A stretch of DNA of 64,000 nt from Candidatus Sulfotelmatobacter sp. (GTDB taxonomy: Bacteria; Acidobacteriota; Terriglobia; Terriglobales; Acidobacteriaceae). Within the stretch, counting starts at the first letter, position 1, and each line of letters begins with the position of its first letter. Positions 1,662-61,152 of the stretch are shown here, one piece after another. A program made the position numbers and the translations under genes. The notes under the pieces are model-generated. The model saw only the letters and a list, made by a program, of their open reading frames with translations, was not told the origin of the DNA and ran no database searches. The DNA lies in NCBI GenBank assembly GCA_025462865.1, contig JAOAPI010000130.1, positions 1-64,000 of the forward strand, written 5' to 3'.

Positions 1662-3101
1662 TTACAGGCCGGGCTGCATTCGCGGCAACACGACTCTTGC
1701 ACGGCACCCTCTCTTTTTGCTCTGATTTAAAAGTTCAATCGAGCCTCCATGGGCCTCGGCAATCTGCCGGCAGAGAACCAAGCCAATGCCGCTGCCCGCA
1801 GGCTTGGTGGTGTAGAAGGGGACAAACGCGTTGCTGGGATTAAGAAACCCGGGCCCGTTGTCATCGATGCTGAAAACCAACTCCTTCTCAGTAACCTCCC
1901 ACTGCATCACCACTTGCGGATCAACGCGGGTAGGGAGCACACTCTCAACTTCTTCGCTCCCCCTTGCGGCATGCGGTGGTTCGAGAGCCGCTTCGACCGC
2001 ATTTCGGACCAGGTTGATGAGCATCTGCTCAAACTGATCGGAATCAATCATCAACTGCGCCTCGGTGCCGGGGATCACTTGCACTCTCAGCCTAGTCTCG
2101 AGGCCAGCAACCCGCTCTACAATCGGGGAGAGATCGGTCTTGCGGAAAACGGGTGGGGGCATCTGGGCCAGTCGACGGTACGCCTGCAAGAAGCGGTTCA
2201 GGGAATCAGCTCGTGTTCCAATAATGGTTAACCCGCGTTCAAAGTCCTGCCTCGCATTCGCATCGGACACGGTCTTGGAGACCTGCGCGTTCAGACTGCC
2301 AGCAATCGATTTAATGGGAGTAAGCGAATTATTGAGTTCGTGGCCAAGCACGCGAATCAGGCGCTGCCAGGCGCCACGTTCCTCTTCCCGCAGAGCACGG
2401 CTCACGTCCGACAGAACGATTAAAGTGTGCGGCACTCCCTTCTGCCGAAAGGAACTCCTCCGTACCAGCCAGCGGGCATTCGGATAGTGGAAGTGCAGTG
2501 GAACCAGGGTTTCGCTCTCCGCCGATAAGCACTTGTCCAGCCCGATCTCCTTCGCAGTCCGCCCCAGCAGTCTCACGGAAGGCTTCTGCAGCAGCTGTTC
2601 TCCAGCCGAGTTCACCAAACGAAGAACTTGATCCGGATCGAATGTGAACAGCGGCACTTCAATCTCTTCGACCACGCGCCGCAGCAGCGCCGTTGCTTCA
2701 ATGGCGCGAATACGCTGGTCGGCGAGCAAGTCGGCCAGGGCATTCACCTCGAGCGAGAGTTCACCGAGCGCATCATCGGTAGCCGCGCCGCGCGCTCGAA
2801 ACGAATAATCTTCTTCACGCAAGGCTGCGATCACATTAGACAGAGTCTGCAGCGGCCGCGTGGTTTGCTCCTGCAGAGCCATCGCCAGCAACCACCACAC
2901 GAACAATTCAGCGAAGGTCAGCGCTATCTTGGACTCTAACAACCAAGGTTGCAGCCACGTGAAGAAGCCGCTGACCAGCATGCCAGGGAGTGCGACAAAG
3001 AGTGAGAAGAGACTGACTCGCCGCTCATACAGCAGGCGAACCCGCTTGCGGGGGGCTTTCCGAAACGTTGGATCGGGTTTCCCTAAAGGGCTAGAGCCCA
3101 T
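1662..3101 (-). CDS. Sensor histidine kinase (NtrY-like)
   Basis: A 479-residue membrane kinase. Two membrane segments lie at about residues 31-53 and 59-77, followed by a HAMP-like linker, a PAS-like domain (~135-235), the H-box with phospho-acceptor His254 (VLGHELNNSLTPIKS), and a C-terminal ATPase with N-box (NLVRNAVEAAL), G1 (IDDNGPGF) and G2 (GSGIGLVLCRQIAEAHGG). It autophosphorylates and should pass phosphate to the response regulator encoded just upstream, whose stop codon it overlaps by 11 bp. It is the last gene of the efflux operon, so the system probably senses envelope or substrate stress and feeds back on its own operon. The signal is unknown. Confidence 0.92.
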   Translation of the reverse strand: MGSSPLGKPDPTFRKAPRKRVRLLYERRVSLFSLFVALPGMLVSGFFTWLQPWLLESKIALTFAELFVWWLLAMALQEQTTRPLQTLSNVIAALREEDYSFRARGAATDDALGELSLEVNALADLLADQRIRAIEATALLRRVVEEIEVPLFTFDPDQVLRLVNSAGEQLLQKPSVRLLGRTAKEIGLDKCLSAESETLVPLHFHYPNARWLVRRSSFRQKGVPHTLIVLSDVSRALREEERGAWQRLIRVLGHELNNSLTPIKSIAGSLNAQVSKTVSDANARQDFERGLTIIGTRADSLNRFLQAYRRLAQMPPPVFRKTDLSPIVERVAGLETRLRVQVIPGTEAQLMIDSDQFEQMLINLVRNAVEAALEPPHAARGSEEVESVLPTRVDPQVVMQWEVTEKELVFSIDDNGPGFLNPSNAFVPFYTTKPAGSGIGLVLCRQIAEAHGGSIELLNQSKKRGCRARVVLPRMQPGL

Positions 3102-4494
3102 ACTTTTCCATCCGCCGGTAAAGAGCTCCTCGACTGAGCCCTAACACTTCAGCGGCTTGGCTAATATTACCCTGACAACGCTGCAGCGCCTTCCGGATCA
3201 GAATGGCTTCCACGGATTCAAGGCTGAGTTCTTCGAGATTCTGGTTCGGCGGACGCAGCGCGTCTAATCCCAGGTCGGCACGCTGAATCTCAGTCCCACG
3301 GCACATCAACACAGCGCGCTCAAGCGTATGTTCCAGTTCGCGGACATTTCCCGGCCAGGCGTATTGCATGAGCAATTGCAAAGCCGAAGCCTCAAATCCC
3401 TGGACCGGGCGCCGGTAACGCGCAGCGTAGCGACAGAGAAAATGCACGGCGAGAACGGGAATGTCTCCCCGGCGCTCCCGCAATGCAGGCACGTGCATCT
3501 CAACCGTATTCAGCCGGAACAACAAGTCTTCGCGAAATTGACCAGATGCACACGCCGCTCTAAGGTCAGTGTTGGTAGCGGAGATTACGCGCACGTCGAT
3601 CCGGCGCGGCCGCGAGGATCCAACCCGCTCAACCTCACCGGCCTCCAGCACACGCAACAGCTTCGCCTGTTGAGGCAGCGGCACATTGCCAATCTCGTCC
3701 AGGAAGATCGTTCCACCGTCCGCCAGCTCGAAGCGTCCGATGCGATCGGAGCGTGCATCCGTGAACGAGCCTTTCACGTGTCCGAAGAGTTCGCTTTCAA
3801 ACAATCCCTCCGGCACAGCGCCCGTATTTACCGCGATCATTGGACGGGAAGCCCGCGCAGAAAGCGCATGCAGCGTCTGCGCCACCACCTCTTTGCCGGT
3901 CCCATGCTCGCCCGTGACCAGAACGTTCGCATCCGAAGGGCCGACGCGTGTCATGGCGTCAAGCAGCGGCTGCATTCCAGGCGCTGTCGCAATAAATTGA
4001 GGCCGCCCTTCCGTCTGCAGCAGTCGATTCTGCGCAGCCAGACGCTCCGCATCCCGGAGCGCGCGGTGCAACTCCACCTGCGTTCTCAAGATCGCCAGCA
4101 GCCGTTCATTTTCCCAGGGCTTCTGAATGAAGTCCCGAGCCCCCCGGCGCATGGCCTCCACTGCCAGATCGATATTGGCCCAAGCCGTCATCACAATCAC
4201 TGGCATCGTACTGTCCAGCGCAACGATCTCCGACAGTAAGTCGAGGCCCTCCCGTCCCGAAGTGGTGTCGCGCGTGTAGTTCAGGTCAATCAGCACGGAA
4301 TCGTAGGAGTTGGTGGCCAGCGCTTCCCGCGCCAGCACCGGCGATCTCGCCGTCTCCACCACATAACCCTGCGGACGAAGCAGCAGTTCGATGGCCTCGA
4401 GCACATGCTGCTGGTCATCGGCGGCCAGGATGCGGGGACGATCCTTCTTCGTCTTCGGCGCGATGGCGATCTCTTCCGGCCTGGCAATTTGCAT
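3091..4494 (-). CDS. Sigma-54-dependent response regulator (NtrC family)
   Basis: 467 residues, counted from the ATG at 4494; a TTG two codons earlier directly follows the TolC stop. The receiver domain has phospho-acceptor Asp70 and Lys125. The AAA+ domain has Walker A GEHGTGKE (195-202), Walker B TIFLDEI (262-268) and a sigma-54 contact loop reading GSFTDA (242-247) instead of the canonical GAFTGA. A Fis-type helix-turn-helix closes the protein (GNISQAAEVLGLSRGALYRR). Family knowledge: such proteins oligomerise on phosphorylation and remodel sigma-54 polymerase. It sits between the TolC-like gene and its cognate kinase and probably controls the efflux operon. The altered loop could weaken or change sigma-54 contact. 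Confidence 0.93.
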   Translation of the reverse strand: MQIARPEEIAIAPKTKKDRPRILAADDQQHVLEAIELLLRPQGYVVETARSPVLAREALATNSYDSVLIDLNYTRDTTSGREGLDLLSEIVALDSTMPVIVMTAWANIDLAVEAMRRGARDFIQKPWENERLLAILRTQVELHRALRDAERLAAQNRLLQTEGRPQFIATAPGMQPLLDAMTRVGPSDANVLVTGEHGTGKEVVAQTLHALSARASRPMIAVNTGAVPEGLFESELFGHVKGSFTDARSDRIGRFELADGGTIFLDEIGNVPLPQQAKLLRVLEAGEVERVGSSRPRRIDVRVISATNTDLRAACASGQFREDLLFRLNTVEMHVPALRERRGDIPVLAVHFLCRYAARYRRPVQGFEASALQLLMQYAWPGNVRELEHTLERAVLMCRGTEIQRADLGLDALRPPNQNLEELSLESVEAILIRKALQRCQGNISQAAEVLGLSRGALYRRMEKYGL

Positions 4495-4500
4495 GCTCAA

Positions 4501-6453
4501 TTATGGACTCGTCGCGCTGACGCTGCCATTCACCGCATCCTGCAGCAGGATGCCATTATGTTTCAACGTCGTTCCCGTGGCGCGATCCAGTTCCACCTTC
4601 GCCTTTTCGTGGATGGTCACGGCGCTCACCAGATCTAATGCAGCCAGTGAAAGATCACGCTGCGCTGTGAGTGTCTGATAACTCGATCCCGCTCCCAGTT
4701 CCTGTTCCTTCCCCGTGATTTCAAACGTGCGCTGCGCCAGGTCCCGCGCCTTGCGGGCGGCTTCCACTCTCGCACCGGTTTGTTCCAGCGCATACTGCGC
4801 ATTGCGAACCTCAATGCGGACCTGCTTTTTCAGCTGCTCCCGCCTCAGTTCCGCCTGGCGGTATTCGAGCTCGGAACGAAATTGATCAGCTTTCGCCACA
4901 CGGTTCCGGAGGGGAAGATTCAGGTTCAACCCGATATAGTAATCCGGGGATGAATTGTTGAACGTGTTTCCCATTGCTCCCGCGAAATCAACCGGCACAT
5001 TGGAAGTGCATCCTTGACACAGAGGATTCAGCGGCCCCGCCAGCCCTGAGCCGCCGTAGAACCCTACCAGTGAGAGCGATGGCAGCAATGCATTGCGTGC
5101 CGCTCTGCGGCTGATCTGGCGGTTGACCAGGTCTACGTCAGTCTCAGCCAGCTCGGGGCGGTGCTGCAAAGCTTCTGCAATCAAATCCTGAATCGGCGAA
5201 ACAATCTGGATTTGATCGGTCTTCGTGCGGTCCGTTGGAATAACCGGCATCGCTTCCAGAAGCGGATCGGACAAATTCTTGGTCACCGCATTCTTCATGA
5301 GGGTTTCTTGCAGTTCAAGGCTCGTCCGGGCGACAGTCAGATCCTGATCGCGCTTTGAAACTTCAGCTTCGGCTCGCATCACATCCAGCTGCGGAATGCT
5401 CTCCAGTTGTAGCTGTTTGCGCGCATTCCCCAGAGTCTGTCGAGCGAAAGCGGAAGATTGCTCGTTGACCTGCGTCTGCTCGTAGGCGCTGACCAGATCC
5501 CAATAAATATTCTCGATCTGCGTGACTGTGGCGATGACCTGATCTTTGAATGCGATATCGGAAATTTTCTTGTTATTGCGCGCGATGCGAAGATAGCGCA
5601 GGTTTGGCCCGAAGCCGAAGCCTGCCAGCAACTCCTGCTGGATCGTAAAGCGAAACATCCCGCTGGTGGCGGGCGACAGAAAAAGAAAAGGGCTATTGGT
5701 TGACTGGCGGTTATTGTTGAACTGGAAAGAAATGTTCGTCCCCGTCGAAAACGCCTGCAGGTAGCTAAAACTGAACTGGCCTGTATTCAATTGCAGCGAA
5801 GGCACGCCGTAAATTTGCAGGTTGGCCAGCGGTGTGGTCTGATGTTCCGCTCCCACCGAAGCAGTAATTGCCGGATCATACGATGACACCACAGTGCCGG
5901 CTCCCAAAGTGGATTGAACCAAACCAGAAGCGCCTGCCCCCGCGCCGCCCGCCCCGCTGGATGTTCCGCCGGCCCCGGCCCCTGGAGCTCCCGTGCCAAA
6001 GCCTCCCACACCACCACCTGGAGTTCCTTGCACCACTCCCGTATTCACACCGCGGAAAAACCCTCCTGCCTGGGTACGCAGAATATCGGTGTCGGCAATG
6101 GGCAAGTTGTAGCGGGCGATGGCCAAATCGAGATTGTTTTCCAGCGCAAGATCAATCGCATCTTTCAACGAAAGATAAAGCTTGCCATCCCGGACGAGTT
6201 GCAAAAGCCGCGTCGAGTTCGCGAGTTCAGGCTCTGGCACCGTGTTCGGCGAATACGCATCGAGTGGGTTATGAGATTTCGGCATCTCAAACTGAAGGCG
6301 CCCAGCGCTCTGTGGAACCGTGTCCGAGCCTTGTGTCTGGGATCGCGGCGGCGAAGGCATCGCCGCCTGCCCCCACCCGTTGCCCGCCAACATCCCCCCC
6401 ACACACAGAACGGCGATCCTCCGTTGCCACCAACCAGAACCCTGGAACCTCAC
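4501..6453 (-). CDS. TolC-family outer-membrane efflux protein
   Basis: About 650 residues with two OEP repeats of long helices, e.g. the RIEVRNAQYALEQTGARVEA region near the C-terminus. I choose the GTG at 6453 because it forms a GTGA overlap with the ATPase stop codon and places a signal peptide (RRIAVLCVGGMLAGNGWGQA) at the N-terminus; an upstream ATG at 6513 would put 20 charged residues before the signal. The protein is longer than a typical TolC (~450-500) owing to an N-terminal extension and a Gly/Ala/Ser-rich insert around residues 135-175. It provides the outer-membrane channel of the tripartite exporter encoded upstream. Confidence 0.9.
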   Translation of the reverse strand: MRFQGSGWWQRRIAVLCVGGMLAGNGWGQAAMPSPPRSQTQGSDTVPQSAGRLQFEMPKSHNPLDAYSPNTVPEPELANSTRLLQLVRDGKLYLSLKDAIDLALENNLDLAIARYNLPIADTDILRTQAGGFFRGVNTGVVQGTPGGGVGGFGTGAPGAGAGGTSSGAGGAGAGASGLVQSTLGAGTVVSSYDPAITASVGAEHQTTPLANLQIYGVPSLQLNTGQFSFSYLQAFSTGTNISFQFNNNRQSTNSPFLFLSPATSGMFRFTIQQELLAGFGFGPNLRYLRIARNNKKISDIAFKDQVIATVTQIENIYWDLVSAYEQTQVNEQSSAFARQTLGNARKQLQLESIPQLDVMRAEAEVSKRDQDLTVARTSLELQETLMKNAVTKNLSDPLLEAMPVIPTDRTKTDQIQIVSPIQDLIAEALQHRPELAETDVDLVNRQISRRAARNALLPSLSLVGFYGGSGLAGPLNPLCQGCTSNVPVDFAGAMGNTFNNSSPDYYIGLNLNLPLRNRVAKADQFRSELEYRQAELRREQLKKQVRIEVRNAQYALEQTGARVEAARKARDLAQRTFEITGKEQELGAGSSYQTLTAQRDLSLAALDLVSAVTIHEKAKVELDRATGTTLKHNGILLQDAVNGSVSATSP

Positions 6454-7190
6454 GATGCGCTTACCTCCACCGGTTGGGTAAGTACCGGATTGGCTGTATC
6501 TCCCACCAGCCATCCATCCCGCAATTGAATGGTGCGGCTGCCGTAAGCCGCGTTCGCTTCCGAGTGCGTAACCTGCACGATGGTTGTTCCCTGTTGGTTC
6601 AGCTCACGAAAGAGTTCCATAATCTCTTTGGCTTGGCTGGAATGCAGATTTCCAGTCGGCTCATCGGCCAGCACGAGCTGCGGCTTGTGAATCACGGCTC
6701 GTGCCACACCCACCAGCTGCTGTTGACCGCCCGAAAGCTGGCTGGGATACAGATCTTTTTTCGCCACAATCTGGAAGCGATCGAGCGTGTCCGCCACCAA
6801 ACTCTGCCGCTGCCCGCGCGGAATATCCTTATACGAAAGCGGCAGATCAATATTTTCCTCAACGGTCAGGTCGTCGAGCAGATGGTAGCTCTGGAACACC
6901 ATGCCCACATTCCGCTTCGCCACCTCGCCTCTCAGCTTGCGCTTCAGATGGTGAACCGCTTCCTCGCGAAACCAGTACTCCCCGGTCCACTGGTCGTCCA
7001 ATAGCGCGAGCACGTTAAGCAGCGACGACTTCCCTGCTCCCGATGGTCCCATCACGGTGATAAATTCTCCCTGCTGAATGGCGAGATTCACACGGCGCAA
7101 CACCCAGGTGTAGCCCGCGCCGGTCTTGTAATTGCGTTCGATATTTTTCAGTTGAATCATTTTCACTCTCAATTCAGAGGTCTTACTCAT
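6450..7190 (-). CDS. ABC transporter ATP-binding protein 2 (MacB/LolD type)
   Basis: 246 residues. Walker [10 protein letters not shown] (48-56), Q-loop VFQSYHLL, signature [15 protein letters not shown], Walker [11 protein letters not shown] and H-loop VTHSE are present. Two departures from the usual LolD/MacB pattern are visible: the residue after LSGGQQQ is Leu instead of Arg, and the D-loop reads GNLHS instead of GNLDS. Its ATG sits inside the stop region of the collapsed permease just upstream (TATGAGTAA), an ancestral translational coupling. It would energise FtsX/MacB-type permeases. Because its immediate permease partner is broken, it may serve the other ADOP permeases or be losing function. 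Confidence 0.9.
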
Positions 7191-7546
7191 ACCTCAGCGC
7201 CACCATGGGATCGACCTTCGCCGCCCGGTGCGCCGGGATATAACTCGCGGACATTCCGACCACAACAAATAGTATTGAGATACCGATAAACGTAGCCGGG
7301 TCGGTAGCTCTGACCTGGAACACCCGCCATCATTTCGTCGAATCGCACCGGCGTAGCTCCCTCGATGACAATTACCAGCCGTCCAAGCGCTTTGAGCAAG
7401 ACCGCGTGTACGACGGAAAAGATTGCGGTATTACTCCCAATTCCAAGGGTGAGCGTAAGCAATGCAACCGCAGTGAATCCTGGATTCTTCCGCAATTGCC
7501 GCAACGCATAACGAAGGTCTTGGAAGATGGCATTCATGTCATTCAC
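7183..7546 (-). pseudogene. Collapsed ADOP permease (internal deletion plus frameshift)
   Basis: The first ~70 codons from the ATG at 7546 encode a normal ADOP N-terminus ([20 protein letters not shown]). In another frame, the last ~45 codons encode a normal ADOP C-terminus: [17 protein letters not shown], then a membrane segment, then [13 protein letters not shown] and TAA at 7183. About 700 central residues are missing, and the junction near 7320-7350 shifts the frame. The ATG overlaps the stop of permease E by four bases (ATGA), so it was an ordinary member of the operon. The deletion probably arose by recombination or slippage among the tandem paralogues. Confidence 0.88.
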
Positions 7547-9972
7547 TCATTGCGTAGCGCAACCATGGGATTGACCCGGGTCGCGCGATACGCGGGAACA
7601 TAGCTCGCGAGCAGTACCGAGGTCATGAGCACCAGGCATACCCCTCCAAACGTAGTCGCGTCCGTCGGAGTAACACCGAACAGCAAGCTGGCAATCACTC
7701 GTCCGGCTGCCACTGCACCGGCAACTCCCAGGGCCGCCCCAATCACTGCCAGCCTCATACCGCTGTTGAGAATGAGGCGCAGAACATCTTTCTGCTGCGC
7801 GCCCAACGCCATGCGGAGTCCCAACTCCCGTGTCCGTTGCGCCACGGAATATGCCAGCAAGGCATAGAGACCCAGCACCGCCAGCAGCAAAGCCAAACCG
7901 GCAAACGCGCCCAGCAGGTATGCGGGATAGGAGCGCAGCAGGATCGTGGGGGATTCCGCGATGATCTGGGCCATACTGGCGATCGCGTAAACCGGCACAT
8001 CCGAGTCAATTTCCCTGACGGCATGGGTTATGGCGTTGGCTAGTGTCGCAGGAGCTTGCTGGGTTCGTACCACCACGCTGAAAGCGGCCGGCGGATCCTG
8101 CTCGAAGCTTTCATAAATCACAGGGCTGGGATTACGGTCCAACCAGCCAACATTTTCATTACCCACCACTCCCACGATTTGCCAGACGTTGGGATCGCTG
8201 GTGTAGGTGAAGTTGATCTGCTTGCCAAGCGGGTCTTGCCGGGGAAATACGGCGTCCGCAAGGGCCTGGTTGATCACGATGACATGAGTCGATCTCTCGG
8301 TGTCCGCGGCATTCAAGAAACGGCCTGCCCGCAATGGAATTCCCATCACCGAAAAATAATTCGTGGTAATGGAACGAGTATTCGCCTCATACTCCGTGCC
8401 ACCGCCACTCTTCGGGTGGTCAACCATATCGAACAGCGAAGTGTTGCCTCCTCCGCTTAGCGGGACAATAGTCACTGCCCCGGCTTCTTTCACTCCGGGG
8501 AGACTATTGATTCTTTGCAGCACCTGGTGCTGGAACCCCAGCTGGCGCGTGCCATCGGTATACGCCTTGTCCGGTAGGGATAGCGCCAGAGTCAGAAGGT
8601 TTTCTGTGTTAAAGCCGGGATCATTGTTCAAGACACGGTTCAGGCTCTTGAGCATCAGGCCCGCACTTACGAGCAGCACAACCGCCAGAGCCACTTCCGA
8701 GATCACCAGCACGCCCCTCAATCGGTGATGAAAGGATCCTGTCGCTGTGCGCCCGGCTTCCTGCAACGACTGGCGAAGATCGATCTTGAAGGTTTGCAGA
8801 ATCGGCGCCAAGCCAAACAGAATCCCTGTCAGCAGCGACAACGCCAGCGAAAACCACAGGATGTTTCCTTGCACTCTCAATCCCTGCAGGGCTGGCATCG
8901 CCAGAAGGTCGGTCTCTGGAACTGCGGCAACAATCGCCGGAACGGCCCAATAGGCGGCCACCAGACCCGCGACTCCGCCGGCAACCGACAGCAGCACGCT
9001 CTCTGTCAGCAGTTGACGGACAAGGCGAGCCCGGCCGGCGCCCAGCGCGCTGCGAATCGAGATCTCCTTTTGCCGAGGCACGGATCGTGCCAGCAGCAAG
9101 CCGGCAATGTTGGCGCACGTGATGAGAAGTACAAATCCTACCGTCGCCATCAGCACGATGACAACCAGCCTCACCGGTCCCAGGAGTTCGTCTCGCAAAG
9201 AGAAGAGCCGCACTGCTACTCCTGCATTGGAATCGGGGTATTGACTCTCCAACCGGTGGGTCACGCTCAACAATGCCGATTGCGCCTGCTGTAATGAAAC
9301 TCCGGACCTTAGCCGGCCAATGGGATACAGCCAATGCGCATTTCTTCGCAGCCTCCAACCTGAAACCTGCAGCGATTGCCAGAAGTCGGCAGAGTTCGTA
9401 GGGCCAAACTGGAATTCCTTGGGAAGCACTCCGACTATTGTGGAAGGCACTCCATCCAGCGTTAGAGTCTTCCCGACGATGATCGGATCGCTGCCGAAGC
9501 GTCTCCGCCATCCGCCATAGGAAAGCAGAACGGAGGCAGTCTTTTGTTCCGTTTCTTCCGATGGTACGAACGTCCGTCCCAAAACCGGGCGCACGCCAAG
9601 CGTCTCGAAGAACCCGGTGCTCGCTACCCCGACCGTCACTTGCACCGCTCCACTGGGCTGCGACAGCGTCATTGTGGTCCGCGAGTAGGCGCCGAGTTGC
9701 GCGAACACCTGGCTGTTTCGCATATCCACAAAGTCGGGATAGGACGCTTCCATCTGCTGAAAGACTCCTGAGGTCCGCGTCTCCCAGACCTGCACTAATT
9801 CCTCCGGCTTCTCGAAGGGAAGCGGTCGCAGCAAAGCCGCGCTGAGAACCGTGAAGACGGCCGTATTAGCGCCAATCCCCAAGGCCAGCATCAGCACGAT
9901 CACGAGGGCAAAGCCCGGACTCTTGCGCAACATGCGCCATCCATAACGGACATCCTGATAGATTGTTTCCAT
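7543..9972 (-). CDS. ADOP-type efflux permease E
   Basis: 809 residues with the duplicated MacB_PCD-FtsX architecture: N-terminal membrane helix (~18-42), periplasmic domain, three-helix FtsX block (~270-420) with [13 protein letters not shown], second periplasmic domain, and a terminal FtsX block with [13 protein letters not shown], ending [10 protein letters not shown]. Ribosome site GAGGT lies 5 bases before the ATG, 8 bp after permease D. This is the acidobacterial duplicated permease family. Such MacB-like permeases are thought to move substrates from the periplasm through MFP-TolC partners by mechanotransmission; no substrate can be deduced. Confidence 0.93.
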
Positions 9973-9980
9973 TTAGTACC

Positions 9981-12407: not shown

Positions 12408-12420
12408 TTTCGACTCCTCC

Positions 12421-14868
12421 TCACTCGTATCTCAACGCCGTCATAGGATCTACCTTCGTCGCTCGATATGCGGGAATGACGCTGGCAAACAAAGCGATCG
12501 CCGCGAGCAGACCCGTTACCGCAAAGAAAGTAATGGGGTCGGCGGGCTTCACCTCGTAGATCAAACTCGACAACACACGACCCAAAGCCAGCGCTCCCGC
12601 CGCGCCGATCGCCATGCCCAGCAAGGCTGGCTTCAACCCCTCGACTACCACCATGCGCAGCACATCGCCCACCCGAGCTCCCAGAGCCAGCCGGATTCCA
12701 ATTTCTCTTACTCGCCGTCTTACGCTGTAAGACAGCACGCTGTAGATGCCCCCTCCCGCCAGCAACAGCGCAAGCCCGGCGAAAGCGCCCAACAGCAGCA
12801 TATTGAACCGCTGCTGCGAAAGAGAATTCGCCACCAAATCATCCATATTCAAAATGTCGCGCAGCGGCATCTCGCGATCAACATCGTGCACGGCATTCGA
12901 CACCGCAGTCGCCATCCCCGCCGAACCGGAAGCGGACCGCACCACCAGCGTCATCGGAAACGATTTCCATCCTCCATTCGCGGGCGCGGAAATTTGCTCC
13001 AGCGGAAAATAAAGAGTTGGGCTCGGGCGCGTCTGGTCGAGGCCGTCCATCTTCACATCGCCCACCACCCCCACTACTTCGCGCACCGCATCTGGAAAAA
13101 AAGTTAAAGTAAGCCGCTTGCCCAAAGCGTCTTCGTTCGGCCAAAACTGTCGAGCCATCGATTCGCTGATCAGCACCACCGTCGGTCTTCCCGCCAAATC
13201 GGTATCGCTGAAGTCGCGCCCACGCAAAATCGGAATCCGCAGCGCGCTCATGTAACCCGGCGTGCTCAGCCGTACATCAACCTCCGGCTGCTCCGACATC
13301 GGCAGGATCGGCCGCCCTTCGATCGCTACCGGTTGATGCGACCCTCCATTGTCCAGGGGAACGTCGTCGATCACGCCCGCGGATTCGACTCCCGGCAACC
13401 GTCGCACTCGCTGCAACACCTGTCTGAAGAAGCCTGCCTGCTGCGACGGCTCGGGGAATTTCGCCCGCGAGACCATCGCGCTCATCGTCAAAACATTGTG
13501 CGAATCAAATCCTGGATTCACAGCATGCAGTCTCTGAAAACTGCGGATCATCAAACCTGCGCCGACCAGCAGCATCAATGACAGAGCGACCTCCAGCACT
13601 ACCAGAATGCTGCGCGTGCCATGCCCGCTCGAATCCGCATCCGTGCGCCCCAGCCCTTGTTTCAGCGACTGGCTCACGTTCCCCCGGCTCAAACGAAGCG
13701 CCGGAAGAACTCCCGCCAGAATCCCTGCGACTACAGAAATGATGGCTGTGAAAGCGAGCACCTTGGCATCCAGCTTGACTTCAACCGAATGCGAAAGCTT
13801 GTCCGCCAGAAACGCCATGATCAGTCGGACCCCGGCATGCGCATAGGTCAGCCCCAACGCCCCTCCCGCCAGCGCGAGCAGCACAGACTCAGTAATCACT
13901 TGCCGCAGGATGCGTGCCGAACTGGCGCCCAGCGCGGTTCGAATCGCAATTTCCTTTTGGCGCCCGAACGTTCTCGCCAGTGCAAGGTTGGCCACATTCA
14001 CGCTGGCAATTAGAAGGACGAATGCCACCGCTCCCAGCAGCACCAGCAATGCCGGCCGCACATCGCTGACCAGATCGTCATGCAAAGGCACCACCACGGC
14101 GCCCCATCCCTTGTTATCCTCCGGATACTGTTGCTCCAGTCGGCTGGAGATCGTATTCATCGCCGCTTGCGCCTGCTTCAAATCAACACCCGGCTTGAGA
14201 CGGGCAACCACCACCGAGTGATGTTCTCCCCGCACCGCTCGTTCCTTGTCCGTCCAGGCCATCGGCGTCCACATCTGCGCGAAGTCGGGAAACTGAAAGC
14301 TCACCGGCATCACGCCCGCCACCAGATAGCTCTGGCCATCTAGGTTTATGTTGTGCCCCACAATGTCGCGATTTCCTCCGAAGCGTTCTTGCCAGAGTCG
14401 ATGACTCAGTACTACGACATTGGAGCGGCCGGCTTGATCTTCTTCGGGAGTAAACACACGCCCCAGCATCGGCTGAATTCCCAGCGTCGAAAAGAACCCG
14501 GACGACGCGCTACATGCATCGACCTGCTCTGGCTTATCGCTGCCTGTCAAAATGAATCCCCGGAAACTGTAGATCGCCATCCCTTCGAAAACCTGATTCT
14601 GCCGCTCCCAATCCAAATAATTCGCCGCGGAAACCGAGAAGGTCGGCATTCCCGGAAAACTTTTCGCCGGAGGAACATGCCACACCCGAACCAGCCGGCC
14701 AGCATCTTTGAACGCCAGCGGCCGCAGCAGCACCCCATTCACTACGCTGAAGATGGCGGTGTTCGCGCCAATCCCCAGCGCCAGCGTAACCACCGCCACC
14801 GCGGCGAAGCCCGGGCTCTTGCGAAACTGGCGTAGAGAAAAACGTATGTCCTGAAATATTCCCCTCAT
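12421..14868 (-). CDS. ADOP-type efflux permease C
   Basis: 815 residues from the ATG at 14868, chosen because GGAG lies 6 bases upstream and overlaps the TAG stop of permease B; an ATG at 14874 lies inside that ribosome site. Coupling motifs are RQKEIAIRTALGA and RVREIGIRLALGA, and the end is VDPMTALRYE. MacB_PCD and FtsX domains are duplicated as in its neighbours. It belongs to the same operon and is presumably energised by one of the two ABC ATPases encoded at either end of the permease block. Confidence 0.93.
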   Translation of the reverse strand: MRGIFQDIRFSLRQFRKSPGFAAVAVVTLALGIGANTAIFSVVNGVLLRPLAFKDAGRLVRVWHVPPAKSFPGMPTFSVSAANYLDWERQNQVFEGMAIYSFRGFILTGSDKPEQVDACSASSGFFSTLGIQPMLGRVFTPEEDQAGRSNVVVLSHRLWQERFGGNRDIVGHNINLDGQSYLVAGVMPVSFQFPDFAQMWTPMAWTDKERAVRGEHHSVVVARLKPGVDLKQAQAAMNTISSRLEQQYPEDNKGWGAVVVPLHDDLVSDVRPALLVLLGAVAFVLLIASVNVANLALARTFGRQKEIAIRTALGASSARILRQVITESVLLALAGGALGLTYAHAGVRLIMAFLADKLSHSVEVKLDAKVLAFTAIISVVAGILAGVLPALRLSRGNVSQSLKQGLGRTDADSSGHGTRSILVVLEVALSLMLLVGAGLMIRSFQRLHAVNPGFDSHNVLTMSAMVSRAKFPEPSQQAGFFRQVLQRVRRLPGVESAGVIDDVPLDNGGSHQPVAIEGRPILPMSEQPEVDVRLSTPGYMSALRIPILRGRDFSDTDLAGRPTVVLISESMARQFWPNEDALGKRLTLTFFPDAVREVVGVVGDVKMDGLDQTRPSPTLYFPLEQISAPANGGWKSFPMTLVVRSASGSAGMATAVSNAVHDVDREMPLRDILNMDDLVANSLSQQRFNMLLLGAFAGLALLLAGGGIYSVLSYSVRRRVREIGIRLALGARVGDVLRMVVVEGLKPALLGMAIGAAGALALGRVLSSLIYEVKPADPITFFAVTGLLAAIALFASVIPAYRATKVDPMTALRYE

Positions 14869-14877
14869 CACCATCTC

Positions 14878-17361
14878 CTACTCGTATCTCAGTGCCACCA
14901 TGGGATCGACGTTGGTTGCCCGCCTCGTCGGCAGATAAGTGGCCAGACACGCTACCGCAGCCAACAAAACCGAAACTCCCGCGTAAGTAATCGGATCACT
15001 GGACGTAACGCCCACGAGAAAATCGCTGACCATGCGGCCCACGGCGAACGCCGTTAGCAGGCCAACGGTCAAGCCGGATGCGATGATTACCGCGCCTTGG
15101 CGTCCGATCATCCGGAGGATGTCGCGCTTTTGCGCGCCCAGAGCGATGCGCAGACCAATCTCCTGCGTGCGCTGGCTCACGGCGTACGACATCACTCCGT
15201 ACACGCCAACAACTGCAAGAGTCAGCCCCAGCAATCCCAGCGTCGCAGCCAGACTCGCTCCAACTTCGAAAAACAATAAGCCGTTTCCTCCGTGCAGGGC
15301 TTGCGTCATGGTTCGTACGCCGTAGATTGGAACCGCCGGCGCCAGAGACTGCGCGACTTCTCTCACCTGTGGGACGATGGCCTGGGAGCCTTGCTCCGAG
15401 CGTATCTGCAGCGTTTCCGACGGCGCGTAACTCTGCGCGACCGGCAGATAGAAGATCGGTTCGAATGCCCCATAAAGCTGGCCCATTCGGCTGTTCTGCA
15501 CCACTCCGACAATGGTCGCGGGATGCTTGGGATCGGAAGTCACCGCAAAAGATTTGCCCAGGGCATCCTGGCCCGCCCAATAGCGTTCCGCCATCGCCTG
15601 GTTGATCGCGGCCACGTGAGGCGAGTTTTCATTGTCCTCGTCGCTGAAATCACGGCCGCGATTTAGCGGGATGCGCATAGTTCCGAAATAGTCCGGGGAC
15701 ACAGCATTGAATTCCGCATGAGGGGCCTCCTGGTTTGAGGAAGTTACGTAGCCCGGAATCGCCAGGTCGCTGCCTTGCACGGAATCGCTCAGCGGGACCA
15801 CCGAGGCAAGGCTCGCAGACCGTACTCCGGGGAGAGCTCGCGTACGCTCCAGCATCGCTCGATAGAAAGCCCGTCCCTGCACTTCCGTATAGCCGATCTC
15901 ATTCGGGTCGAGCGTCAAATTGAGGACACCCTGGGGATCGAACCCCAAATCACTACTCTGAACGCCGCGGAGACTGCGCACAAAAAGACCTGCGATGATC
16001 AGCAATGTCAACGATCCGCCAACCTGTACGGCGACCAGAATTCCGCGCAAACGCTGGCGTCCGCCGGTCGAGGTGCGTCCGCCTTCGTGCAGGACTTCGC
16101 GCAAGTTGCCTCGCCACACCCGGGCTGCAGGCATGACGACGACGAACATCCCGGTGAACACGGCGACGGCCAATGCATACACAAACACATGCCAGTTGAA
16201 ATCGAAATTCAAGACAATGGGCAACTCAGTTTGCAAAGAGACCGAGCCGAGTAATCGCGTTCCGCCCAGACCGAGCAGAAGTCCCAGGCCGCAACCGAGC
16301 GCAGCCACCACCAGACTCTCGGTGAACAGTTGGCGAACTAACCGGCCATTCCCTGCGCCCAGCGCGGCTCGCACGGCCATCTCACGTTGGCGTCCCGCCG
16401 CGCGGACTAGAAAGAGATTAGCGACGTTCATGCAAGCGAGAGCCAGAACCAGCGCGGCTAAAGTCATGAACAGAGCTGCCAGCTTGGGGAAAGGATTCGT
16501 ACTTCCCGAGATGATTCCCGCGGGCCCCAAGGGATTGGCGCGCAGGTCGCCAATTCCCCGGTCTCGGGGATATTGCTTCAGCAGGCGCTGGCCCACTACC
16601 GCCATCTCGGACTGGACTTGCTTCACTTTCGCGCCGGGTTTCATCCGCGCAATGGCGATCATGCTGCGTGTGCCGGGATTTGCCAGGAAGTCGGCGGCGA
16701 CTCCTCTCTCGATCAGAAACATGCTGAGCGGAAGATATGCCTGGATCTCAAGGATGGGCGTCGGCCCAAGAAACCCCTTGGGCGCGACTCCAACGACGGT
16801 AACGGGATGACCGTTAATCGAGGCGGCTTTCCCGACGATCGCGGGGCTGCCACCGAAGCGAGTCCGCCAATAGTCATAACTCAGAACGACTACCGGGTCC
16901 GCACTTACAACCTTGCCTTCCGTGCTCAGAATGAAGCGGCCGGCTGCCGGCGTAATGCCCAGCACTGAGAAGAAATCGCCGCCCACGTAAGCGGTCTGAA
17001 CCGACTCGGTGATCCCGTCCACACTCATGCCACTTTGAGAGTTTTGCGCGCCCGCCAGACCGCCGAAAACAAATGATGTTATTCCGGAAAAGACATCCGT
17101 AGTCTGCTTCTGAATCTCCGCAAACTCCGGATACGAGAATTGAACTTCGGAATTTCCGCCAGGCCTGGCAAAGGCCAGAAAATGCATCTGCTGCGGATCC
17201 TTGATGGGCAAAGAGCGCAGAACCAGCCAGTCCACCATGCTGAAAATCGTCGTGTTCGCCCCAATGCCGAGTCCAAGGGTCAACACGATAATCGCGAAAA
17301 AGCCGGGGCTATGGCGCAATTGGCGAATCGCGTAGCGAATGTCTTGTAACAGTCCGTTCAT
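14878..17361 (-). CDS. ADOP-type efflux permease B
   Basis: 827 residues from the ATG at 17361; a GTG three codons earlier (17370) is possible, and TAGGAG overlaps the stop of permease A. The N-terminus is DIRYAIRQLRHSPGFFAIIV; coupling motifs are RQREMAVRAALGA and RTQEIGLRIALGA; the end is [10 protein letters not shown]. The first periplasmic domain is the longest of the five paralogues. Family knowledge and limits are as for the other permeases; the substrate is unknown. Confidence 0.93.
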   Translation of the reverse strand: MNGLLQDIRYAIRQLRHSPGFFAIIVLTLGLGIGANTTIFSMVDWLVLRSLPIKDPQQMHFLAFARPGGNSEVQFSYPEFAEIQKQTTDVFSGITSFVFGGLAGAQNSQSGMSVDGITESVQTAYVGGDFFSVLGITPAAGRFILSTEGKVVSADPVVVLSYDYWRTRFGGSPAIVGKAASINGHPVTVVGVAPKGFLGPTPILEIQAYLPLSMFLIERGVAADFLANPGTRSMIAIARMKPGAKVKQVQSEMAVVGQRLLKQYPRDRGIGDLRANPLGPAGIISGSTNPFPKLAALFMTLAALVLALACMNVANLFLVRAAGRQREMAVRAALGAGNGRLVRQLFTESLVVAALGCGLGLLLGLGGTRLLGSVSLQTELPIVLNFDFNWHVFVYALAVAVFTGMFVVVMPAARVWRGNLREVLHEGGRTSTGGRQRLRGILVAVQVGGSLTLLIIAGLFVRSLRGVQSSDLGFDPQGVLNLTLDPNEIGYTEVQGRAFYRAMLERTRALPGVRSASLASVVPLSDSVQGSDLAIPGYVTSSNQEAPHAEFNAVSPDYFGTMRIPLNRGRDFSDEDNENSPHVAAINQAMAERYWAGQDALGKSFAVTSDPKHPATIVGVVQNSRMGQLYGAFEPIFYLPVAQSYAPSETLQIRSEQGSQAIVPQVREVAQSLAPAVPIYGVRTMTQALHGGNGLLFFEVGASLAATLGLLGLTLAVVGVYGVMSYAVSQRTQEIGLRIALGAQKRDILRMIGRQGAVIIASGLTVGLLTAFAVGRMVSDFLVGVTSSDPITYAGVSVLLAAVACLATYLPTRRATNVDPMVALRYE

Positions 17362-17376
17362 CCGAATCACCGTCTC

Positions 17377-19820
17377 CTACTCATACCTCAGTGCCACTAC
17401 CGGATCGACTTTCGTGGCGCGCCGCGCGGGAATCCACGCTCCCAGCAGCGCCACCGCCAGCAATAACAATGTGGCCTCGGCTAGAGTCTTGGCGTCAGTC
17501 GGCGCGATCCCAAATAACAGTGATCCCATCCAGCGCGCCGCTATCAATGCGCCCAGGATCCCTGCTACAGCTCCTACGCCAATCCACATCGATGTGCTCA
17601 AAACCATGAGCCGGGTCGCGCTACCGGGCGCTGCTCCCAAGGCCACGCGGATGCCGATTTCCTGCGTCCGCTGCGTCACCAGCAGCGAGACGACTCCATA
17701 GATACCGACCGCCGTCAACAGCAGTCCTGCAATCGCGAACTGCAATAGCAGCGCCGCTATGTAACGTGGTCGCTCTGCCAGCCGGGCCACGCTCTGTCCC
17801 AATGTGCTCACCTCTACCGGCAGCGTCGGATCAAGAGCCGCAACGGAATTCCGCAATTCCGTGGCCCACGTCGGCGCGTCAATCGCCGTGCGCGCAACCA
17901 CACTGATATGCTGAGAATCCGGATAACGAAACACGATGTCGTCGTCCCGGTGCTTGCGCACCACGTAGTATTCGGGAACCACCCGTCCCCCTAGTCCCTG
18001 ATTCTGCGTGTCTCCCGTAATTCCGATGACGGTGAATGCCACTCCGAGGTGTTGGTCGTCCGCCCGTAGCCGGACGATTTTCCCAATCGGCTCTTCTCCA
18101 GGGAACATGCGCCTTCCCATGGCTTCATTCAGGACGAGCGTGTTTGCAGCCGGGAGGCGATCTTGTTCTGCGAATGTTCGTCCCCGCAGGAGGCGGATGC
18201 CCAGCACTGAAAAATATTCGGGCGTCACCGCCCGCCATCCCACGACACCACCAATCCCTTCGCCCGGACTGAGCGGCGGATGGCCCTCTGCCTCCAGTGC
18301 TATAAGCGGCATGGTGCGCGCCGGTTCTTCAGGAGGAAGCGAATCGCTGAGCGCCGCCTCGCTCACCCCCGGAAGTTGCTTCACTCTCTGCTCCAGTACC
18401 TCGAAGAAGGCGCGTTGACGCCCGGCATCCGGATACTTTTGCTGCCCCAGGGAAAACTTCGCCACCAAAACGTTTTGCGTGTTCATCCCCAGAGGTTCGG
18501 TTTGAAGGTTGCGCAAGCTGCGAATCAGCAACAAAGCGCCAGAGAGCAGGACCACAGCGATGCCCACCTGCGTCACGATAAATAGTTGGCGCAACGCTGA
18601 GCGGCGGACGCCAAGCGTGTTCGCCACCACCAGCGTTTCCGTCGCCGGCTTTTCGAGCGCCGGCACTGTCCCGAATACCACGCCTGAAATGAGTGACACG
18701 ATCCCCGCGAAAACAAGAACGCGCCCATCCACGCTCGCCTCGGACAGATGCGGAATTCCTCCCGGCGACAGTGCAACAAACATTCGCACAATGAGCACCG
18801 CGATCCCACAACCCGCTGCGCCTCCGGCTAGCGCGAGGACGATGCTCTCCGTCAGCCTTTGCTGGAACAGGCGGCCGCGCCCCGCCCCCACCACGGCGCG
18901 GACAGCAAACTCCTTTCTTCGCCCCACACTCTGCGACAACACCAGGTTCCCCACGTTGGCGCAAGCGATCAGTAGTACCGCCCACCCTGATGCCAATAAC
19001 AGCCACGCACTTCGACGCGCGTCATGAACCTGCAAATCCTGAATGGTGTGCACTTGCAGGCGCAGCACCTTGCGAAATGGGGGCGGAGCCGACTGCACGA
19101 AGTCCTGAAACAGGGGCTGCAGCTTGGCTTTGGCTTGCTCGACGGTATCTCCCGGCTGCATCCGCCCGAACACTCGGATCACCGGCCCCATCAAGTTTCG
19201 CTGCACGATCGACTCGTCGAGCGCCTGCGGCACCAATACGCCAACATGCGCAAGCGTTGGAAACTCGAAATTGCCCGGTAAGACACCAACAATTCGCGTC
19301 GGCCGCCCGTCCAGTGAAATGCTGCGGCCTATCACCCCGCGGTCGCCTCCGAATCGGCTTTGCCACAACCCGTACGAAAGCAATGCGACCCTGGGAGCCT
19401 GTGGCTGGTCTTCAGCCGGAGTAAAGTTCCGCCCCGCCACCGGCTGGATTCCGAATGTTGGCAAAAACGTGGACTCCACCGCCCCACACGACACGCGCAC
19501 TGGATTCTCGTCGCTAAGATCGCAATCACTCACCCCCGATGACGATGTGAAGCCGCTGAACGCAGTCTGCTGATGCCTCCAGGTCAGGTACGAACGGGCG
19601 AAGAGAAACTCTCCCTCAATAATGGGTGCGATAACCCCGACGGAGACAAGTTGATCGCCAGCGGGATAAGGCACGCTGCGAAAAAGAATGCGGTCCACCA
19701 GGCTGAACATTGCGGTCGTTGCCCCAATTCCCAATGCCAGCGTGATCACCGCCACTGCGGTGAACCCCGGCTTCTTCCGAAGTTGGCGCAAAGAGTAGCG
19801 AACGTCCTGGACCAGCGCAC

Positions 19821-19824
<4 letters not shown>
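17377..19824 (-). CDS. ADOP-type efflux permease A
   Basis: 815 residues and first permease after ATPase 1, whose stop it overlaps by four bases (ATGA), the tightest coupling in the operon. The N-terminus is DVRYSLRQLRKKPGFTAVAV, then a periplasmic domain, an FtsX block with RRKEFAVRAVVGA, a second periplasmic domain, and an FtsX block with RTQEIGIRVALGA, ending VDPVVALRYE. The direct overlap makes it the most likely primary partner of ATPase 1. Confidence 0.93.
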
Positions 19825-20546
<722 letters not shown>

Positions 20547-20582
20547 AAGTTTTTCGCCTTCAAGTTGTGCTCTTGCGTCTGC

Positions 20583-21842
20583 CTACTCCAGCTGGATGCG
20601 ATCGGTCTTGTCCCAACGCGACATGTCGGAAAGAATCACCGTGTCGCCTTCGTGAAGACCCTCGAAAATCTGAATTGAATTCACCGACTCGCGTCCCACC
20701 TTCACTGGTACGCGCACCGCATCTTTCCCGTTCCCTTCCAGCCTGAAAAGGCTGATGGTGCTGTTTTCCTGCCCGAATGCCGGCCGTCCCACATAAAGCA
20801 CATTGTCCAGCCGCTCCAGGTCGATCGTTCCATCCACGCTCAGGTCCGGCCGCGCTCCCTTGGGCAGTTCGCCGGTTAGTTTCACGTCCACCGTCACCGT
20901 TCCGTTTTGTACTCCAGGATCGACTCGCATCACCGTGCCCGCGATCATGCCGTTGTGCGTGTCCACCGACGCGGGCTCGCCGAACTGCACATCGCGCGCT
21001 TGCGTCTCCGCGATCTTCAGCGTGGCCATCAAATGTTCCGGCTGCACCACTTTCGCCAGCATCGTTCCCGGCTGCACATGTTGTCCCACCTGTAATGGCA
21101 GCTCGACCAACACTCCGCTGATTCCCGCTCTCACTCTCAGCGCTTCCAGTTGCTTCCGCTTCAGATCCGCCAGAGTCCGGGCCTCATCTACTTTCGCCTG
21201 CTGCTGCGCGAGTTGCGTTTCAATCGCTTTCTGGTTAATCGTCAGCCTCTGCCCTTCGAGATCGTTTCTGGTGGTCAGCTCATCCGCTTTTCCCTTGGAC
21301 CCTTTGTAGGCAAGCCCTGAAATTACGCCCAGCTCGTAAAGCGCTTTGTCAGTATCCGCCTGTCGTTGCGCCTGACTGTAGTCCGCGGTCACGGTAGCCG
21401 CGCCGGCCTTCTGGGTCATCAGGTCGCTGTCCAGTCGTACTCTCACGCTTTGATATTCCGCCTCGGCCGCCTTCCACTGAAGCCCCGTATCAATCGCCGC
21501 CTGTTCGACCTGCGGATTGCTCATCTCGACCAGAATGGTGTCCGCTTGCACTTGCGAACCCGGCAACACACGGATGCGAACCACCGTTGCCTCGGTCTCC
21601 GCGGGAATCTGGCGAACCGCTTCCTGCGCTGGAATCAATGATCCCGGCCCTCGCACCTGCCGCAGCATGGGCCCTCTCTTCACCACATCGGTCCACACCG
21701 TTCCGCGTTCCACCGACGGAGCCGCCGGCTTCAGTCTCATCACCCCGATCGTCACCGCTACAACCACCACCGCCCCAATCCCAAACATCACAATCTGGCG
21801 GCGGCGTTTCTGCAGTTTCAATTCAGGTCGAGCGATGTCCAT
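20583..21842 (-). CDS. HlyD/MacA-type membrane-fusion (periplasmic adaptor) protein
   Basis: 419 residues. One N-terminal membrane anchor (~17-36), a biotinyl-lipoyl half-motif (RIRVLPGSQVQADTILVEMS), a long coiled coil (~105-235), the second lipoyl half (GISGVLVELPLQVGQHVQPG), then a beta-barrel and a membrane-proximal domain. It should bridge the inner-membrane permeases and the TolC-like channel. It is the first gene of the ~20-kb operon. No good ribosome site precedes the ATG, so the start is slightly uncertain. Confidence 0.92.
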   Translation of the reverse strand: MDIARPELKLQKRRRQIVMFGIGAVVVVAVTIGVMRLKPAAPSVERGTVWTDVVKRGPMLRQVRGPGSLIPAQEAVRQIPAETEATVVRIRVLPGSQVQADTILVEMSNPQVEQAAIDTGLQWKAAEAEYQSVRVRLDSDLMTQKAGAATVTADYSQAQRQADTDKALYELGVISGLAYKGSKGKADELTTRNDLEGQRLTINQKAIETQLAQQQAKVDEARTLADLKRKQLEALRVRAGISGVLVELPLQVGQHVQPGTMLAKVVQPEHLMATLKIAETQARDVQFGEPASVDTHNGMIAGTVMRVDPGVQNGTVTVDVKLTGELPKGARPDLSVDGTIDLERLDNVLYVGRPAFGQENSTISLFRLEGNGKDAVRVPVKVGRESVNSIQIFEGLHEGDTVILSDMSRWDKTDRIQLE

Positions 21843-22102: not shown

Positions 22103-22552
22103 TTGAAGAATGGCTGCCAAGGTAGGATTCGGGTAGTGGGCTGTTTTTGATCAGCCCACTACCAGGATTCGATCCCCTGTTCAATGTAAACACAAGCATT
22201 TACGGAGCACTCACGGCACTAAAATCACATGGAAGTATCCCGTAGTTTTACGCTAAATGATCGCCAACGGATTGCACAATCCCGGCGTCCCCGGCGCACG
22301 GACTTTACCCGCATCTCGCTACATTTCTCGATCGCCCGCTACGCTGACCATTGCCATATAGTTTTCTCAAGCCGAAGTAAGGCATCAACGAATGCGGGTA
22401 TGGCAAACAATCCTCCCACCTCTGATCGGGCGCCACGTGCAGAGACGTGCGTATGCGGCGCTCGTCCTCTCTGGATGCTATGAAGAGCGGGGAATTCTGG
22501 TCGTCATCGAGTGCAGGCCGGTAACCTGCTCTTGCACGATGCTGACCTGGGG

Positions 22553-59410: not shown

Positions 59411-59572
59411 ATGGTGCTCGCGCTGCATAGTAGCCGAAATGTTATCCCTAGTGCATATATAATGGCGGAAGGTGGAGGGATCGGACCTCAGGCCCCGCAA
59501 GGGAAACTAACCGTGTATAAGACGGTTTTCTAGCAGCCAGCTAGTCACCTTCCGCTGAAAGAGCCTCACCAC

Positions 59573-60051: not shown

Positions 60052-60192
60052 ATGAAAGTAGACAAACAAAAATTCGACGCAGTATTGAGTAGACTAATAG
60101 CGGCAGAGCCTCAGAAACGCTCGACAGTCAAGCCTGACCGAAAGCCTAGAAAGGCTCGGAAGTCTTCGGCTCGTGGCGCACGAAGGGCGTAA
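60052..60192 (+). CDS. Small basic protein convergent with the transposase
   Basis: 46 residues: MKVDKQKFDAVLSRLIAAEP, then a Lys/Arg-rich tail (KPDRKPRKARKSSARGARRA). Short proteins starting MxVDKxKFDxLL next to transposases are familiar to me from acidobacterial genomes. Overlaps the 3' end of the transposase gene by 47 bp. Role unknown. Confidence 0.55.
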   Translation: MKVDKQKFDAVLSRLIAAEPQKRSTVKPDRKPRKARKSSARGARRA

Positions 60193-61117: not shown

Positions 61118-61123
61118 GCTAAA

Positions 61124-61152
61124 ACTATAGCTGAGAACACATTCTGTGTCAA
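61124..61152 (-). promoter_or_regulatory. Transposase promoter partly within the right inverted repeat
   Basis: TTGACA (61147-61152), 17-bp spacer, TATAGT (61124-61129): a near-consensus sigma-70 promoter. Only six bases separate the -10 box from the transposase ATG, so the transcript would be leaderless or nearly so. Confidence 0.75.

Follow-up and report, generated by a model that had tools for sequence, protein, structure and literature searches.

ADOP permeases (TIGR03434) take their name from the absence of ATP-binding partners, and to our knowledge no engine has been assigned to this large family, members of which are found in many acidobacterial genomes. A shared-motor layout is known for importers, in ECF transporters and in MsiK-type sugar uptake; we know of none for MacB-type export. 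In ECF transporters the membrane subunits compete for one energising module (PMC7755397), which consists of EcfAA'T (PMC4820897). The stretch of DNA analysed here, referred to as the window, comprises 64,000 nucleotides from Candidatus Sulfotelmatobacter sp. (contig JAOAPI010000130.1). Its minus strand carries, from position 21842 to 1662 and in the 5' to 3' direction, genes for a periplasmic adaptor, an ATPase (ATP1), five ADOP permeases (A to E), a permease remnant, a second ATPase (ATP2), a TolC-type outer membrane factor, an NtrC-type regulator and an NtrY-like kinase (Table 1). Adjacent genes of this operon overlap or have no more than 36 bases between them. We consider, with a probability of roughly three in four, that the locus combines a MacB-type exporter chassis with five exchangeable permeases, and that the chassis may also power in trans the orphan ADOPs that are encoded elsewhere.

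All five permeases of the window are members of the ADOP family by score and by domain content. Each scores above the curated ADOP cut-off of 622.3 bits over its full length (744.7–988.6 bits) and contains two MacB_PCD and two FtsX stretches in one chain. On the single-unit MacB equivalog model, which has a cut-off of 966, they reach at most 127.5 bits; this scoring had been proposed in the earlier note as a check on its ADOP assignment, and no better MacB match emerged. The two halves of each permease are 24–31% identical to one another. Named matches of permease C, at up to 94% identity, come from acidobacterial metagenome-assembled genomes. The locus departs from the family description, which includes the lack of an adjacent ATP-binding gene: here ATP1 overlaps permease A, and an ATPase and an adaptor share the operon with ADOPs in many relatives too. 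That lack describes the family and plays no part in the scoring.

Several known exporters resemble the locus in part. MacAB-TolC has the same components, namely an adaptor with HlyD-type domains, a TolC-type factor (OEP), MacB_PCD and FtsX domains and MacB-class ATPases. In contrast to MacAB-TolC, the locus encodes its ATPases, of two kinds, apart from the permeases; each permease is a fused pair, and many permeases face a single chassis. An identity with MacB was rejected on the permease scores given above and on the separateness of the ATPases. The ATPase is likewise a separate protein in YbbAP and LolCDE of E. coli, whereas those systems have one permease set per ATPase. We know of no adaptor–TolC chassis for YbbAP. 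Like an ADOP, YbbP appears to be a fusion of two MacB-type units (PMC5985334). The darobactin exporter DarBCD (NF038007, NF038008, NF038010) has similar parts, and DarD is the best NCBIfam match of both ATP1 (247.1 bits) and ATP2 (233.3 bits). DarBCD was nevertheless rejected as an identity, as both values fall under the DarD cut-off of 375 and the scores for DarB (at most 29.7 against 700) and DarC (57.8 against 450) are far lower than required. A search of the literature, in which preprints and most subscription papers were not covered, found no account of ATPase-linked ADOP operons or of an ADOP ATPase, and thus nothing to bear out the concern in the earlier note that such operons might already be routinely described. 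The Solibacter genome paper treats transporter paralogues in general, and the terms 'ADOP' and 'ATP-binding' are absent from its main text (PMC3174227).

The presence of ADOP and that of ATP1 go together across the phylum. In a sample of 395 acidobacterial genomes of at least 90% completeness, with ADOP counted at E ≤ 1e-140 and ATP1 at E ≤ 1e-105, the two agree in 391 (152 with both, 239 with neither); ADOP alone is found in three genomes (G061, G076, G321) and ATP1 alone in one (G281). The thresholds were chosen after both best-match distributions had been seen to be bimodal (empty from 1e-98 to 1e-107 and from 1e-117 to 1e-146), and two candidates were scored per genome, so that the survey records presence and not number. 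Fisher's p on this table ignores kinship. In 20 families and 14 genera some genomes have ADOP and others lack it, and ATP1 varies accordingly in every one of these groups, with the exception of a single genome (G321, family f31); in the family of the window it is found in 36 of 36 ADOP-bearing genomes and in none of 14 ADOP-free ones. Similarly, among 61 relatives, 48 have an ADOP over the cut-off, 45 of which also have ATP1 (E ≤ 1e-80) or ATP2 (E ≤ 1e-60). In the other 13 there is an ATPase in one (G038), which has a weaker ADOP inside its chassis. Related ATPases of lower score behave differently: in 34 genomes the ATP1 profile has its best match between 1e-85 and 1e-99, and two of these genomes have an ADOP; it is therefore ATP1 in particular that tracks ADOP. 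ATPases at 1e-75 to 1e-84 are the best match in 192 of the 395. The energy source and export route that the earlier note had offered for the family are in this way supported beyond what could be seen from the window itself.

The chassis itself recurs across the phylum, as the survey of gene order suggested by the earlier note has brought out, and the arrangement is neither local nor accidental. In related contigs and genomes the order adaptor–ATP1–[ADOPs]–ATP2–TolC–regulator–kinase is found with between one (L047, L095) and ten (G011) ADOPs. Wherever the stretch holds the gene, identity to the window is 78–90% for the adaptor, 85–96% for ATP1 and 80–92% for ATP2, while a given window permease may be 69–91% identical in one operon and at the 30–50% level of a paralogue in the next. 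The chassis is therefore stable and its set of permeases shuffled. At 71 loci the same-strand chain with ATP1 includes an adaptor in 67, an ADOP in 33, ATP2 in 24, a TolC-type gene in 20, the regulator in 32 and the kinase in 26; since 19 of these chains extend as far as the stretch itself, the figures for later genes are lower bounds.

Thirty-three ATP1 loci have no ADOP and lie off the edges, and 29 were carried forward; those left out are a second locus of G058 (L161), two near a contig end (L201, L206) and one with a weak ADOP fragment (L042). The 29 come from ADOP-bearing genomes, and in 27 at least 5 kb downstream of ATP1 is in view, L163 and L212 ending sooner. An ADOP lies off the chain in five of the stretches (L167, L185, L189, L207, L213), those of L207 being directly divergent, and no weaker MacB- or FtsX-like match was found in 28 of the 29. 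The series adaptor–ATP1–ATP2–TolC–regulator–kinase runs without a gap and without an ADOP in G040, G041, G043, G182 and G419. No permease domain was found in the ten frames flanking four of the ADOP-less loci, of which four had no match; the other six encode two homoserine dehydrogenases, a further TolC-type protein, a further ABC ATPase, a racemase and a DUF3037 protein. Where the permease is absent from the ATP1 operon, linkage cannot explain the joint presence or absence of the two.

In nine genomes searched at E ≤ 1e-100, 23 of 131 ADOP matches are by position within a chassis operon (G010, 9; G011, 10; G013, 1; G018, 1; G053, 2) and 108 are outside one (G010, 5; G011, 25; G013, 2; G018, 1; G037, 34; G040, 22; G058, 18; G054, 1); a tenth genome, G055, gave no ADOP matches in the same search. 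These figures derive from search rows, with one of the 131 (G040:C12) lacking examined surroundings and flanks being shorter at contig ends. Of the first-look candidates, 56 of 67 were scored in G011 and 50 of 55 in G037, so these two totals may be low; in G283, considered below, 56 of 61 were scored. A MacB-class ATPase occurs in the flank of one of 109 orphan frames, a set in which border-split genes and genes covered twice count more than once (stretches L064/L065, L070/L071, L102/L103, L114/L115). Genomes in one contig give the clearest ratios, each with one ATP1: G419 has 38 ADOPs at E ≤ 1e-140 (36 over the cut-off), G283 has 32 (31 over) and G384 has 18 (all over). ATP1 scores 439–451 bits in these three and the next ATPase 273–282 bits. 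Together, the ATPase–adaptor sets without a permease and the many orphan ADOPs in the genomes of relatives point to sharing in trans, and the best reading of the sequences is that the adaptor–ATPase module would be shared in this way. The likeness to ECF transporters lies in this ratio of one ATPase set to many permeases encoded apart (38:1, 32:1 and 18:1). It is an analogy and not membership, as ECF permeases are unrelated, serve import and have neither an adaptor nor an outer membrane part.

A different account would make the locus a self-contained exporter with five paralogues, with the orphans using unlinked ATPases or no ATP, and with the co-occurrence reflecting ancestral linkage. This we regard as unlikely, since 29 ADOP-bearing genomes have an ATP1 chain free of ADOP, 27 of them with ample downstream sequence, and the agreement is 391 of 395 all the same; nor do the lower-scoring ATPases track ADOP, common as they are (2 of 34 with ADOP, best match in 192 of 395). 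Several observations weigh against the main reading, and the first three of them also favour this account. ADOP is linked to ATP1 at 19 of 40 phylum-wide loci, so that part of the co-occurrence is ordinary linkage. All five full ADOPs of the window's own genome lie inside the operon, no further ADOP above the cut-off being listed by the genome search; sharing in trans is thus unneeded there, and the ECF-like pattern of one module with many permeases is not seen in that genome. The closed genome G384 has two further MacB/LolD-class ATPases with more than 170 bits on the ATP1 profile, and no FtsX permease is listed near either of these unpaired ATPases, nor, by position, near two in G419. Three relatives have an ADOP and neither ATPase (G023, 77% complete; G050, 54%; G057, 100%), and G061, G076 and G321 have ADOPs with ATP1-profile matches of at most 323 bits. 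In G061 the stretch with the closest ATPase also holds a partial ADOP and has no recognised adaptor. ATP2 is in chain with ATP1 at 24 of 71 loci, a lower bound, so the heterodimer considered below is not general. Finally, sigma-54-like sites ahead of 76 single orphan ADOPs score 5.93 on average against 5.66 (standard deviation 0.27) in shuffled sequence. We maintain sharing in trans as the preferred reading, at the probability given above.

Side observations on these genomes and loci are as follows. G061 and G076 (L217, L218, L219) belong to one genus and have 235 and 145 ADOP candidates with no clear ATP1. In G037 (L117, 7093–17500) an ADOP, one of the orphans counted for that genome, stands 780 bases ahead of adaptor–ATP1–TolC–ATP2–regulator on the same strand, a layout intermediate between the linked and the permease-less chassis. 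In the G018 chassis (L098, 9707–11443) broken ADOP pieces lie beside an intact one and resemble the remnant in the window; the L098 chain was read short because a weak ADOP fragment was filtered out. Two genomes of a single genus have a homoserine dehydrogenase gene immediately after a chassis without permease (L179, 15891–17378; L183, 2356–3654). A Verrucomicrobia record (L060, 1344–7256) shows the order ADOP–ATPase–ADOP, with an ATPase 63% identical to ATP2; it and a second Verrucomicrobia record, L063, give matches to permease C. One of seven proteins scanned, an orphan ADOP (L082, 6805–9669), has an N-terminal 'permease prefix domain 1' (NF038403). On a home-made profile a prefix-like N-terminus was found in 17 of 97 orphans and in none of 21 operon members; a strict split into prefix-bearing orphans and prefix-free operon members is too weak to keep, and most orphans are without the prefix.

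The phylogeny agrees with exchange between the two settings. On a tree of 122 ADOPs, from which partial permeases were left out, with local SH-like supports and some long branches that meet, no fewer than 16 changes are required for the label 'in chassis', and well supported branches force 12 of them. The label is still clustered, as 500 shuffles averaged 23.7 and never gave so low a number. Two operon members have an orphan as sister with local support of 100 (L064_G010_11025 with L077_G011_7336; L070_G011_13078 with L099_G018_7467), the members of each pair coming from different genomes of one genus, and permease D groups with two orphan permeases of G011, also with support of 100. As judged from this tree, ADOPs pass between operon and orphan states. 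A conserved cytoplasmic motif of the type EIGIRxALGA is also kept: among orphans it is present in the first half of 85 of 96 and in the second half of 92 of 96, and among operon members either half has it in 25 of 26. MacB has its major coupling helix between transmembrane helices TM2 and TM3, and a minor coupling helix at the C-terminus (PMC5985334, PMC5673888); judging by the domain layout, the motif would fall in the helix between TM2 and TM3.

The earlier note suggested a multi-substrate or hetero-oligomeric exporter, and the five permeases might indeed form one hetero-oligomeric exporter rather than exchangeable alternatives. They are probably co-transcribed, with spacings of −4 to 13 bases, and are only 32–42% identical in pairwise comparison. 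Each ADOP, on the other hand, already contains both permease halves, and the number of ADOPs per operon ranges from none to ten with patchy content. Exchangeable single units are favoured because chassis operons with one ADOP exist (L047, L095, L178), and we think a hetero-oligomer improbable.

The two ATPases differ in a fixed manner. The D-loop of ATP1 is NLDS in all 14 aligned rows, whereas that of ATP2 is NLHS, accompanied by QQQLV after the signature, in all ten. This asymmetry would suit a heterodimer beneath a permease whose halves differ from each other. Solved structures of MacB, YbbA and LolD come up among the top PDB matches to the ATP1 profile. In several relatives that have ATP1, nothing matches ATP2 at E ≤ 1e-60. 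As ATP2 is absent beside ATP1 at many loci, ATP1 must there work alone or with another partner, and a heterodimer as a general rule is unsupported. The proposition that ATP1 is the sole unpaired MacB-class ATPase is also untrue, given the two others in G384. One of these two (L221, 2525–4857) adjoins its own adaptor gene, with no FtsX permease listed nearby, and its score equals that of the best match in most ADOP-free genomes.

The mechanism that we propose starts from what the sequences show, namely gene content, co-occurrence, copy numbers, chassis operons without a permease, permeases that belong to the operon in one genome and are orphans in another, and motifs kept at the presumed docking sites. 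From these we infer how the parts would dock, the heterodimer, the sharing in trans, the direction of export, the substrates and the regulation. The locus would encode the chassis, both motor and outlet, of a tripartite exporter of the MacB type (type VII ABC). Each ADOP, as a fused permease pair, would take the place of a MacB dimer and call for two ATPase domains. ATP1, together with ATP2 where present, would serve one ADOP at a time by docking on its coupling helices; the conserved variant D-loop of ATP2 makes a heterodimer of the two ATPases probable. The adaptor and TolC would carry a periplasmic substrate over the outer membrane. One chassis per genome would be the norm, driving also those ADOPs that are encoded elsewhere without an ATPase, and permeases would join, leave and decay in the operon as the chassis persists. 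The NtrC-type regulator and the kinase, whose periplasmic part is minimal, would probably tune the amount of chassis.

Table 1. Features of the operon in the window, in the direction of transcription, with the domain or family match of each.
Feature	Positions	Strand	Match
Periplasmic adaptor (membrane fusion protein), 419 amino acids	20583..21842	-	PF16576 E 1.2e-12; PF13437 E 2.8e-12
ATPase 1 (ATP1), 241 amino acids	19821..20546	-	PF00005 E 9.5e-35
ADOP permease A, 815 amino acids	17377..19824	-	TIGR03434 777.1 bits
ADOP permease B, 830 amino acids	14878..17370	-	TIGR03434 846.7 bits
ADOP permease C, 817 amino acids	12421..14874	-	TIGR03434 988.6 bits
ADOP permease D, 808 amino acids	9981..12407	-	TIGR03434 744.7 bits
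ADOP permease E, 809 amino acids	7543..9972	-	TIGR03434 934.7 bits
Sixth-ADOP remnant, N- and C-terminal ends in different frames	7187..7546	-	TIGR03434 positions 2-48, 758-803
ATPase 2 (ATP2), 236 amino acids (ATG 7160) or 246 amino acids (ATG 7190)	6450..7190	-	PF00005 E 3.3e-29
TolC-type outer membrane factor, ~650 amino acids	4501..6453	-	PF02321 E 6e-40, two stretches
NtrC-type response regulator, 469 amino acids	3091..4500	-	PF00158 E 4.8e-64; PF00072; PF02954
NtrY-like histidine kinase, 479 amino acids	1662..3101	-	PF02518 E 2e-15

Pfam and NCBIfam domain matches bear out the gene content, order and coordinates that had been read from the letters alone, and the junctions hold as well. 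ATP1 and permease A overlap by four bases (19824–19821), and the ATP2 gene, if begun at the ATG at 7190, starts within the stop region of the broken permease copy; another candidate ATG lies at 7160. The two matched segments of the broken copy lie at 7385–7525 and 7186–7323. Because only model positions 2–48 and 758–803 remain, and these in different frames, it is an internally deleted sixth permease. For TolC, as read by eye, the GTG at 6453, which overlaps the ATP2 stop, is a more likely start than 6513. Upstream of the adaptor gene, at 22120–22190, a T-arm-like stretch ggatcgaatcctgg is followed by an inverted repeat agtgggctg...cagcccact (by eye).

The regulator has the NtrC-type layout of a receiver (PF00072), an AAA+ domain (PF00158) and a Fis-type helix–turn–helix (PF02954), and its best NCBIfam match, TIGR02915, falls at 387.6 bits under the cut-off of that model. 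The loop expected of a sigma-54 activator is GAFTGA; the window regulator has GSFTDA instead, and the regulators of relatives have GAFTDA in 32 of 36, the other four not fitting the motif pattern. Ahead of the adaptor gene at 65 loci, sigma-54-like sites score 7.0 on average against 5.28 (standard deviation 0.36) in shuffles, and in 16 of these upstream regions a site of at least 8 of 11 lies within 20–50 bases ahead of the first possible start. The best −24/−12 match of the window itself is weak (8 of 11, at −260). The control by a sigma-54 NtrC/NtrY pair proposed in the earlier note is thus supported only in part: the domains and the enrichment of sites in relatives speak for it, whereas the activator loop deviates and the match in the window is weak. 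Four single orphans score 9 or more, against 1.4 (standard deviation 1.2) in shuffles; a sigma-54 regulon common to orphan ADOPs is unsupported, there being no clear enrichment of sites in the 76.

In Pfam only HATPase_c of the kinase is above its cut-off, with PAS_4 just under. The H-box, read by eye, is GHELNNSLTPIK. The N-terminus has two hydrophobic stretches separated by a very short loop and almost no periplasmic part (by eye), and in 16 of the 30 kinases of relatives compared, out of 31, there are likewise exactly two such stretches, 5–11 residues apart. In Bce systems BceS reads the state of BceAB, and by analogy this kinase may read the transporter or the membrane. Taken further, the whole assembly could be a mechanotransmission or sensing complex, in which the kinase would read the state of ADOPs and the array would consist of envelope-stress sensors. 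The short-looped kinase would fit such a role, and MacB-type transporters do perform mechanical work across the membrane (PMC5985334); the adaptor in 67 of 71 ATP1 chains and the TolC-type gene in 20 point rather to an outlet, and we hold a sensing complex to be very improbable.

Beyond the operon, from 28000 to 62000, the G+C content of the window drops from ~58% to ~52% and long open reading frames become sparser; this part, which encodes an AsmA-like protein, a CLC channel, a protein kinase and an IS1595-type transposase (60146–61381), is possibly of different origin. At 59463–59553 ARAGORN predicts a 91-base tRNA-Ile with the anticodon tat. Rfam gave no match above the gathering score anywhere in the window, and the call is probably false.

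For the ADOP family, the analysis names a candidate ATPase and adaptor, of which there is one copy in the closed genomes examined. If the proposal is true, these would form part of a tripartite exporter with a shared motor, which would explain how many permeases are kept and shuffled. For the Acidobacteriota more widely, we think it reasonably probable that there is an ECF-like form of export, in which one chassis, made up of one or more ATPases and the adaptor and often accompanied by an outlet and a two-component system of its own, would power in turn up to some forty scattered and interchangeable MacB-type permeases. Export specificities would then be gained and lost by the movement of single permease genes.

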